Assembly (NCBI GenBank): GCA_013298565.1
Contig: JAAFIC010000010.1
Coordinates: 1 to 55,764, forward strand
Direction: 5' to 3'
Source: Alphaproteobacteria bacterium
Lineage (GTDB): Bacteria; Pseudomonadota; Alphaproteobacteria; Elsterales; Elsteraceae
DNA length: 55,764 nt
Every line of letters starts with the position of its first letter. Positions within the stretch are counted from its first letter, which is position 1. The position numbers and the translations under genes are program-made. Positions 52,345-55,689 of the stretch are shown in pieces. The notes under the pieces were generated by a model, which saw only the letters and a program-made list of their open reading frames with translations, had not been told where the DNA came from and made no database searches.

Positions 52345-52782
52345 ATGTCACAATGCCAGTCACACCCCGCCGATGCTGCGGGTGCCGTTGATCTACCCCA
52401 CGCCACTGCCTGCTTTTCCGTCTCGGCTGTGGCCGATCCGGGGCTATTGCCGCGCCTACTACAGCCCTTTGCCAAGCGTGGACTGACGCCCACTGCGTTC
52501 TACGCCCGCCAACACGGCGAGGATGTTTCAGTGGATATTCAAATCGACGGGTTGGGGCAGGAAGACACTGCGATGATCGGGCGCGGCCTGCGCCAGATTT
52601 TTGGCGTGGATGTCGTGCTGGTCTCGCAACGGGTTTCGGCAGAACGATTGTGTATCTCCCCTCCGCCTCGCCCTGGCTACAGGCTCGCAGAATTATTGGC
52701 TGAGTCGGACTACTCGGCCCCGCAGTCCGCAGAAGAGCGCGACTTGATTGATGCGACCGCCGTTGGCGGTGAGGTGATTTGA
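52345..52782 (+). CDS. Stand-alone ACT-like protein
   Basis: 145 residues. Residues about 20-95 (ACFSVSAVADPGLLPRLLQP-FAKRGLTPTAFYA ... VDIQIDGLG ... FGVDVVLVSQRV) have the beta-alpha-beta pattern of ACT domains such as IlvM/IlvH small subunits. No acetolactate synthase or other catalytic gene is adjacent. The C-terminal 40 residues are Pro/Ser/Glu-rich. It may sense an amino acid and control a distant enzyme; unproven. GAGGAG precedes the ATG. Confidence 0.65.
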   Translation: MSQCQSHPADAAGAVDLPHATACFSVSAVADPGLLPRLLQPFAKRGLTPTAFYARQHGEDVSVDIQIDGLGQEDTAMIGRGLRQIFGVDVVLVSQRVSAERLCISPPPRPGYRLAELLAESDYSAPQSAEERDLIDATAVGGEVI

Positions 52783-53183: not shown

Positions 53184-54161
53184 ATGATTGCCACGCCCCC
53201 CACTATCGCCCTGCTCGCCAGTCCTGGGTTTCGCCGTTCGGAGAATAGTCCGCTCGCGGCGCTGCTGACAGTGCTGGCCCCCTTCCTTAGCCACGTTTGC
53301 CCGGCCAAGCTGGTGGCGATGCGCCCCACCTATGACGCGGCGCAAGCGGCAGGGTTTCTTACCGATTATCCCGGCTGGGACGTGCTGCCGCCGTGGGAGG
53401 AAGGCTCGATTGCCACGGTCGCAGCCCGGCTAGTCGAGGGGCAGATTGATTGGGTGATCTATCTGGCCGATCCGGGCGATTTGATCTCGCTGTTCCCCGA
53501 ATCAATTGCGTTAAAGCGCCAGTGCGTCGTGCATGGCAGGCCGTTTTTGGCGACCGTTCGCGCCGCTGCGGAATGGTGCCTATTGCACTGGATTGAGCAT
53601 GATCCGGTTAGCGCTGCCCAGCACCTCTGCCGCCTCGGCGATAACGCGGCGGCAGAGTGCCTGCCGTCGGCCACCGCCCTCGCCCTAGTTGCCCACGACA
53701 CGCGCAAGGCGGCGATGCTGACCTATGTGGAAACTTGGTTTCCGCTGCTCGATCAATTCCGCCTGCGGCTTTCAACCGGCACCACGGGCGGGCTGCTGAA
53801 TGGGGCGCTACCGGAGCGGCTTGGCACCGTGACCGACGACATGCGCGCCCAGGTTGCGCGGCAAGCGGCACGGCTGGAGGGGAAACCCGGCCCGTGGACA
53901 GTGCCTTATCTCTCCGGCCCCAAGGGCGGTGACGCCCAGATTGCCGACCGTGTGTTGCGGGAGCCGGGGGCAACGATCCTGTTTTTTGAAGACCCCCACG
54001 TTGCCCGCGAGCACGAGGCCGATATTCAACTCTTGGAGCGGATTGCTCGGCTCAATACCTATCAGAACGCCTGCCTGCATGATCCTGCGACGGCCCATCG
54101 TTGGGCTGAATTATGGACCCAGGCGCTCAACGCCGGGCTAGCACCCAAGCTAAAAATCTAA
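53184..54161 (+). CDS. Tandem methylglyoxal-synthase-like protein
   Basis: 325 residues, twice the usual methylglyoxal synthase length. The second half (about 165-325) keeps the enzyme's motifs: LALVAHDTRK (H171, D172, K175), STGTTGGLL (phosphate loop at 197-202), YLSGPKGGD (D250), FFEDP (D270) with H277 and D280 after it. The first half aligns in order (IALLASPGF, MRPTYD, EEGSIATVAARLVEGQIDWV, LADPGD) but the HD, TGTTG and GGD residues are lost. This reads as a duplicated domain with an inactive N-terminal copy. It would make methylglyoxal from dihydroxyacetone phosphate if active. matB starts 19 bases downstream on the same strand. Confidence 0.75.
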   Translation: MIATPPTIALLASPGFRRSENSPLAALLTVLAPFLSHVCPAKLVAMRPTYDAAQAAGFLTDYPGWDVLPPWEEGSIATVAARLVEGQIDWVIYLADPGDLISLFPESIALKRQCVVHGRPFLATVRAAAEWCLLHWIEHDPVSAAQHLCRLGDNAAAECLPSATALALVAHDTRKAAMLTYVETWFPLLDQFRLRLSTGTTGGLLNGALPERLGTVTDDMRAQVARQAARLEGKPGPWTVPYLSGPKGGDAQIADRVLREPGATILFFEDPHVAREHEADIQLLERIARLNTYQNACLHDPATAHRWAELWTQALNAGLAPKLKI

Positions 54162-54180
54162 AAACAAAGGGGAGGACGGG

Positions 54181-55689
54181 GTGAACGCGAATATCTACGC
54201 AACGCTCTACGCGCGGTTCCACCATAAGCTCGATGCGACCTGTATCGAAACCAGCGACGGCAAGATCATCACCTTCCGCGCGCTAGACCAAGCGACGGCG
54301 CGGATTGCCAATCTGCTGACCAGCCTGGGGCTACAGAAAGAAGATCGCGTGGCGGCCCAGGTGGATAAATCGCCGGAAGCGCTCATGCTCTGCCTCGGCG
54401 CGCAGCGCGCAGGCTTGGCGTTTTTGCCGCTGAACGCCGCGTATCAAACCGCCGAAGTCGCTTATTTTTTGGAGAATGCCGCGCCGAAAGCCGTGATCTG
54501 CCGGGCGGCGACCCAGGAGGCGATTATTGGCATTGCGGGGGGCGCGCACGTTCTAACGCTAGAGAGCGATGGCAGCGGCTCCCTGACCGAGGCCGCTGCC
54601 GGCCAGAAGGATAGCTTTGCCACCGTCACCAGCGCCCCCGACGATATGGCCGCGATTCTCTACACCTCTGGCACCACAGGGCGCGCCAAAGGGGCGATGC
54701 TCACCCACGGCAATCTTGCCAGCAATGTCGCCGTAACCCATCAGTTCTGGGGGTGGGTGCCGGGGGATGTGTTGCTGCACGCCCTGCCAATTTTCCACGT
54801 CCACGGCCTGTTCGTCGCCTGCAATAACGCGCTCTATAACGCCAGCCCGATGCTGTGGCACGCGAAGTTCGATGCCGCAGCGGTTCTGAAAGACCTCAGC
54901 CGCGCCACCGTGCTCATGGGGGTGCCGACCTTCTACACACGCCTGCTGTCCCTGCCCGACTTCGGTAAAGACGCGGTTGCCGCTGTGCGCCTCTTCATCT
55001 CCGGCTCGGCCCCGCTCTTGATTGAGACGTTCCAGGAGTTCACCGCCCGCACGGGGCACGTGATTCTGGAGCGCTACGGCATGACCGAAGTTCAAATGGC
55101 ACTCTCCAATCCGTTTGCAGGCGCGCGCATTGGCGGCACCGTTGGCCTGCCCCTGCCCGGCGTCAGCGTGCGGATTGTTGATGAGGCTGGGGCCGATAGT
55201 GCAACGGGCGAGACGGGCGCAATTCTGCTAAAAGGCCCAAACATCTTTCGGGGCTACTGGCAAATGCCGGAAAAAACCAAGGAAGATTTCACCGAGGACG
55301 GTTGGTTCAAAACCGGCGATATGGGCAAGCGCGAGGGGAGCGGCTACATCAGCATCGTTGGGCGCGCGAAAGACCTTATCATCTGCGGCGGTCTCAACGT
55401 CTATCCCAAGGAAATCGAAGAGCTGCTCGATGCCGTGCCAGGGATCGAGGAAAGCGCCGTTATCGCCATGCCCCACTCGGATTTCGGCGAGGCCGTTGCC
55501 GCCGTCATCGTACTGAAACCCGGCGCACGCCTGACCGAAGACGCCGTGGTCGAGCACGTAAAAACCCACCTCGCCAACTTCAAAGTGCCGAAAGCCGTGT
55601 TCTTCACCCCTGATCTGCCGCGCAATGCGATGGGTAAGGTGCAGAAGAATATTCTACGGCAGACGTATTTTCCAGCTAAGGCAAGCTAA
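54181..55689 (+). CDS. matB: Malonyl-CoA synthetase (MatB-like acyl-CoA ligase)
   Basis: 502 residues from the GTG at 54181 (GGGGAGGACG upstream). Activates malonate with ATP and CoA. Adenylate-forming motifs: LYTSGTTGRAKGAMLTHGNL, LPIFHVHGLFVACNNAL, ERYGMTEVQMALSNP, WFKTGDMGKREGSGYISIVG, GRAKDLIICGGLNVYPKEIE, and the catalytic lysine in PRNAMGKVQKN. The HGLFVACN and LPGVSVRI blocks fit MatB rather than fatty acyl ligases; methylmalonate is an alternative substrate. Probably cotranscribed with the methylglyoxal-synthase-like gene; the shared role is unclear. No malonate decarboxylase or carrier gene is seen. Confidence 0.88.
   Translation: MNANIYATLYARFHHKLDATCIETSDGKIITFRALDQATARIANLLTSLGLQKEDRVAAQVDKSPEALMLCLGAQRAGLAFLPLNAAYQTAEVAYFLENAAPKAVICRAATQEAIIGIAGGAHVLTLESDGSGSLTEAAAGQKDSFATVTSAPDDMAAILYTSGTTGRAKGAMLTHGNLASNVAVTHQFWGWVPGDVLLHALPIFHVHGLFVACNNALYNASPMLWHAKFDAAAVLKDLSRATVLMGVPTFYTRLLSLPDFGKDAVAAVRLFISGSAPLLIETFQEFTARTGHVILERYGMTEVQMALSNPFAGARIGGTVGLPLPGVSVRIVDEAGADSATGETGAILLKGPNIFRGYWQMPEKTKEDFTEDGWFKTGDMGKREGSGYISIVGRAKDLIICGGLNVYPKEIEELLDAVPGIEESAVIAMPHSDFGEAVAAVIVLKPGARLTEDAVVEHVKTHLANFKVPKAVFFTPDLPRNAMGKVQKNILRQTYFPAKAS

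Follow-up and report, generated by a model that had tools for sequence, protein, structure and literature searches.

The last two genes of the window, the whole 55,764-nt stretch of DNA that was analysed, both lie on the + strand and encode a protein with two methylglyoxal synthase (MGS) domains in tandem, followed by a malonyl-CoA synthetase, MatB. On balance, we favor the reading that the tandem protein is a fused, asymmetric MGS, in which an active C-terminal half is joined to an N-terminal half serving as a non-catalytic partner, with the chains assembled as a trimer of pseudo-dimers. The arrangement is widespread yet seemingly undescribed. The window derives from a genome of 3.0 Mb that shares its genus with Elstera litoralis, and the orthologues of the tandem protein in two other Elstera genomes are 87% and 81% identical to it.

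Two MGS domains in one chain

The features of the tandem protein referred to below are as follows.

53184 to 54161, + strand: tandem MGS-like protein, an ORF of 325 aa
53184 to 53630, + strand: N-terminal MGS-fold domain with catalytic residues lost (residues 1-149), by hhalign, PDB profile search and AF2 model
53223 to 53417: N-half pocket residues 14, 16, 48, 71, 72, 75, 76 and 78, kept in 51-59 of 59 non-Elstera proteins and all replaced in Elstera
53469 to 53576, + strand: N-half signature DPxDxxSxFPExxALKRQCxxHxxP...T...W (residues 96-131), by conservation in 62 proteins
53631 to 53672, + strand: inter-domain linker (residues 150-163), variable in length and sequence
53673 to 54158, + strand: C-terminal MGS domain with intact active site (residues 164-325)
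53802 to 53897, + strand: extra-loop region from TGTTG to SGP (residues 207-238)

Alignments of each half from 13 tandem proteins were compared by hhalign with 20 single-domain MgsA sequences. Both halves matched the MgsA profile (N-half, E 3.4e-14; C-half, E 6.9e-31), in agreement with the first-pass annotation, which had proposed a double MGS-like protein. The whole protein scored 87.7 bits against NF003559, the NCBIfam MgsA equivalog, and thus exceeds the cut-off of 84; the C-half alone scored 70.5 bits (E 1.2e-19), while the N-half alone gave an E value of 2.4e-4. Counting against our preferred reading, the score for the older MgsA equivalog, TIGR00160, was 73.1 bits, below the cut-off of 146.9; other tandem proteins scored 69-85 with this model. 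With 325 aa and two MGS domains, the protein also falls outside the single-domain form of MgsA, which is about 120-160 residues long. The Pfam model PF02142 matched neither half, and the tandem ORF is absent from the PF02142 matches of the genome. All of these fall in two other long ORFs, presumably PurH and CarB, and mark their MGS domains. No other MgsA was found in the Elstera genome, and a glyoxalase I over cut-off is present.

A profile of the N-half searched against the whole PDB returned methylglyoxal synthases only, the best being 1wo8 (E 2.6e-5). The same structure was the best match to an AF2 model of the N-half alone (residues 5-143; TM 0.60/0.64, prob 1.00, E only 1.2e-3), a model with a pLDDT of 74 whose input alignment contained zero MgsA sequences. 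In the full-length AF2 model, which is of low confidence (pLDDT 64, pTM 0.49), the strand and helix order of MGS is seen twice, and the best PDB matches are all MGS. Between the two domains, pLDDT falls below 50 at residues 151-163, and columns 140-163 of the alignment of tandem proteins hold no invariant position.

In MgsA (E. coli numbering), D71 is the catalytic base, H19 stabilizes O3, and H98 assists at O2, while K23, T45-G49, and S65-G66 are phosphate ligands (PMC7843640). Thirteen MgsA positions, with D20, D91, D101, and R107 also among them, were tested in 62 tandem homologues. The C-half was invariant in all 62 at H171, D172, K175, T198, T200, T201, S244, G245, D250, D270, H277, D280, and R286, so that the base, both histidines, and the phosphate ligands are all kept. 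In these 13 positions and in the MGS fold of both halves, the tandem proteins are like MgsA as represented by NF003559 and PRK05234 and by the structures from E. coli (1b93), B. subtilis (6f2c), and Thermus (1wo8 and 2xw6). They differ from it in having two domains per chain, the first without catalytic residues. Also missing from the C-half are the Asn that MgsA conserves in its last strand and much of the tail at the C terminus, which counts against the reading of an active MGS.

A further difference from MgsA lies in the spacing between TGTTG and SGP, which is 15 residues in a typical single MgsA and 23-24 in other tandem proteins, or 8-9 extra residues, whereas the window protein has 41. 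The Elstera excess of 26 residues matches closely the insertion of about 25 residues noticed at first pass in the active copy. A helix at residues 218-230 is predicted in this region by the low-confidence full-length model, and dN/dS between Elstera species is 0.18-0.46. Given the 41-residue spacing and these dN/dS values, the extra loop is real but little constrained. Longer TGTTG-SGP loops also occur in some phage-borne single MgsA proteins.

In the N-half of the 62 tandem proteins, by contrast with the C-half, the equivalent of D71 is Leu, Ile, or Val, and that of H98 is Ile, Val, Leu, or Thr. Position H19 is occupied by Asn, Ser, or His, K23 by His, Arg, or Gln, T45 by Val, Met, or Ile, and T47 mostly by Arg. 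Because these six positions are replaced, the N-half is best described as a pseudo-enzyme domain. It does retain residues equivalent to D91 and R107, and Glu always occupies its D101 position. The proposal that a degenerate MGS copy is joined to a copy whose active site is intact thus appears well founded across the 62 homologues, but the more specific statement that only the second copy keeps the later His and Asp holds for His98 and fails for Asp91. Direct comparison of the N-half and C-half profiles gave a weak match (E 0.0015, probability 17%). As judged from these profiles, the likeness between the halves stems mainly from the relation of each to MgsA, and the weak direct match makes a recent internal duplication unlikely.

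Conservation of the N-half and its possible regulatory role

Thirteen residues of the N-half are invariant in all 62 proteins: D96, P97, D99, E106, A109, L110, K111, R112, Q113, C114, P120, T124, and W131. Two more, S102 and P105, are kept in 61 of 62. Across residues 90-131, dN/dS within Elstera is only 0.01-0.05. Purifying selection within Elstera is stronger on the N-half than on the C-half, with dN/dS between species of 0.07-0.10 and 0.13-0.16, respectively.

Elstera differs from the rest of the family in what was once the active-site pocket of the N-half. In the 59 non-Elstera tandem proteins, H16 is kept in 59, R14 in 55, R48 and R72 in 53 each, and K78 in 51. All three Elstera proteins carry Phe in place of H16, Pro in place of R14, Pro or Thr in place of R48, Glu in place of R72, and Thr in place of K78. 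The changes extend to the flanking glycines at 71, just before R72 and replaced by Trp, and at 75. This pattern suggests that an anion-binding N-half is possible in most of the tandem family and unlikely in Elstera.

These observations bear on whether the N-half is an allosteric effector domain comparable to the MGS-like domain of carbamoyl phosphate synthetase (CPS), with binding of a small anion switching the C-half on or off. Non-catalytic MGS folds that bind an effector do exist, as in human CPS1, whose L4 domain binds N-acetylglutamate (PMC4655335). The CPS domain (CarB/CPS1 L4; PF02142) likewise has a non-catalytic MGS fold, is joined to an enzyme, and so offers a regulatory precedent, and the conserved basic pocket of the 59 non-Elstera proteins is in line with such a role. 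The CPS domain, however, is C-terminal and attached to a different enzyme, whereas the N-half of the tandem protein most resembles true MgsA and goes unrecognized by PF02142. Moreover, replacement of the basic pocket residues weakens a ligand-sensing role for the Elstera protein and makes a shared anion site unlikely to operate in it, and the best-conserved part of the N-half lies elsewhere, at residues 96-131. We therefore regard an allosteric effector domain as rather unlikely. On the analogy with CPS, regulation by the N-half, as first suggested, is possible. Since the pocket is lost in Elstera, the feature common to all members is the 96-131 block, which probably forms a structural or domain-contact face.

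Linkage to matB

The features upstream and downstream of the tandem gene are listed below.

52345 to 52782, + strand: small conserved ORF with no family match, upstream of mgs and present in three Elstera genomes
54162 to 54180, + strand: 19-nt gap between mgs and matB, with a strong ribosome-binding-site-like GGGGAGGA ahead of a GTG start
54181 to 55689, + strand: matB, malonyl-CoA synthetase, full length

The downstream gene is a clear member of the MatB family (NF005702, 757.1 bits against a cut-off of 558; PF00501, 4e-80). The 19-nt gap with its ribosome-binding-site-like GGGGAGGA makes cotranscription of mgs and matB plausible; a scan for promoters and terminators found nothing above chance. 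The pair is kept in three Elstera genomes, along with the whole flanking block, which comprises lpd, sodB, a squalene/phytoene-synthase-like gene, and two small ORFs. Past matB, 75 bp of the contig remain (55689-55764). In E. litoralis, genes on the opposite strand follow matB, including a urease-like ORF.

We compared 36 tandem-MGS regions in which the position of the gene could be fixed, namely, the window and 35 others, mostly with about 6 kb on each side. matB was present in Elstera regions only, and one of the 35 regions outside the window is from Elstera. Non-Elstera neighbors vary by lineage, with glutamate-synthase-like genes in 10-11 regions and a thymidine-kinase-like gene in 6. In one region (L043, from genome G397), a glyoxalase/VOC-superfamily gene (PF00903, 8388-8786) lies 19 nt downstream of the tandem MGS. 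A make-and-detoxify pair is plausible in that region; it is not general among the regions examined.

The mgs-matB linkage pointed out at first pass is thus conserved in the three Elstera genomes and absent from every other genus examined. A functional link between methylglyoxal and malonate finds no support, as matB adjoins the tandem gene only in Elstera, where the whole flanking block is equally kept, and we rejected such a link. Conservation of the linkage is confined to Elstera and so implies no pathway between methylglyoxal and malonate. The linkage is probably local synteny, with matB a genus-level bystander. A search for malonyl-CoA decarboxylase in the genome of the window came up empty; it had no positive control and is unusable as evidence of absence.

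The neighborhood also enters into a different reading, that the protein is no longer an MGS and its two halves bind another phosphorylated substrate, the product in Elstera feeding malonate or acyl-CoA metabolism together with MatB. The close same-strand spacing to matB, the good ribosome-binding site in Elstera, and the long extra loop beside the active site would fit such a change. However, the tested dihydroxyacetone-phosphate-binding and catalytic residues are all unchanged in 62 of 62 proteins, and the other genera examined have no matB neighbor, making a change of substrate very improbable.

The small ORF at 52345-52782 had no matches in Pfam, NCBIfam, or the PDB, and the by-eye idea of a recognizable ACT-type regulator was rejected on these grounds. 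Its first 99 residues are conserved, its tail is missing from the other two Elstera genomes, and in one genome (G002) it adjoins mgs closely.

Distribution, origin, and proposed assembly of the tandem form

Among 385 sampled alphaproteobacteria, the tandem MGS was found only in Elstera, and within the family to which Elstera belongs, only in three Elstera genomes. It was also recovered from 120 of the 594 genomes sampled in three other proteobacterial families (20 of 251 in f44, 58 of 198 in f47, and 42 of 145 in f72). The same two-domain architecture occurs in Acidovorax sp. DW039 on plasmid pACDW039_1, in a protein annotated plainly as methylglyoxal synthase (WP_338799346.1). That protein is 35% identical to the window protein over the match; it differs in its shorter loop (23 residues) and in adjoining an IS30 transposase, not matB. 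One of the 42 tandem genes of f72 (G1230:C26:31170-32025) is interrupted by stops into two pieces and is a pseudogene or an assembly error.

In these other families, the tandem form tends to replace ordinary mgsA. Family f44 has 20 tandem proteins, 55 single MgsA, and no genome with both, with 4.4 expected, and family f72 has 42 tandem proteins, 44 single MgsA, and 3 genomes with both, with 12.7 expected; these coexistence statistics ignore phylogenetic relatedness. Family f47 yielded 58 tandem proteins and not one full-length single MgsA. Such mutual avoidance is as expected if the tandem protein and single MgsA do the same job.

In trees built from few columns and containing some long branches, all N-halves group in a single clade (99), and all C-halves group in a second (88). 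This is consistent with a single old fusion, and the tandem MGS probably arose once and has been inherited as a unit. A functionless first half in decay is scarcely credible, since the loss of catalytic residues and phosphate loop and the bare recognition of the N-half by single-sequence family models are outweighed by a signature block that is mostly invariant across 62 proteins from several families, by the N-half dN/dS of 0.07-0.10, and by the lack of any single-domain derivative of the C-half clade in the sampled tree, which together largely refute internal decay.

Viral sequences contained no tandem MGS, only single-domain MGS matches. In IMG/VR, relatives of the C-half are encoded on at least 309 viral contigs; the relatives examined (L048-L127) are single-domain methylglyoxal synthases. 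In one viral type, the TGTTG-SGP loop is longer, and a motif, LLRQCRIHNIP, is similar to LKRQCVVHGRP of the N-half. In the open-licence literature, no paper brought methylglyoxal synthase together with a pseudoenzyme or malonyl-CoA synthetase, and none of the papers listed dealt with a tandem MGS, which is a weak absence.

In the fused, asymmetric MGS that we favor, the C-half would convert dihydroxyacetone phosphate to methylglyoxal and phosphate by ordinary MgsA chemistry. Asp250 would act as the base, His171 and His277 would serve the enediol, and Lys175, the TGTTG loop, and Ser244 would hold the phosphate. The N-half would be a non-catalytic MGS-fold partner kept in place by the fusion and obligate for assembly or regulation, and may stabilize and tune the active half by contacting it through the DPxDxxSxFPExxALKRQC face. 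Single-domain MgsA is a hexamer in its established structures, hexameric modeling templates among them, and the tandem chain would therefore most likely assemble as a trimer of pseudo-dimers, in which three positions are active and the other three inactive.

Textbooks present MgsA as a single-domain enzyme that draws carbon from glycolysis into a toxic compound. More tentatively, the tandem proteins might form a family descended from an ancient fusion in which the pseudo-enzyme domain controls or completes the active domain and so limits this toxic side-product of glycolysis, unlike phosphate-inhibited MgsA; in Elstera, with the pocket lost, the N-half might act purely through domain contact. 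The matB pairing alone reveals no new pathway. The ordinary "methylglyoxal synthase" annotations of many genomes denote a different architecture, perhaps with different control. As a common variant with a conserved non-catalytic half, the tandem form would offer a clean natural setting in which to ask how active subunits are tuned by pseudo-enzyme ones.
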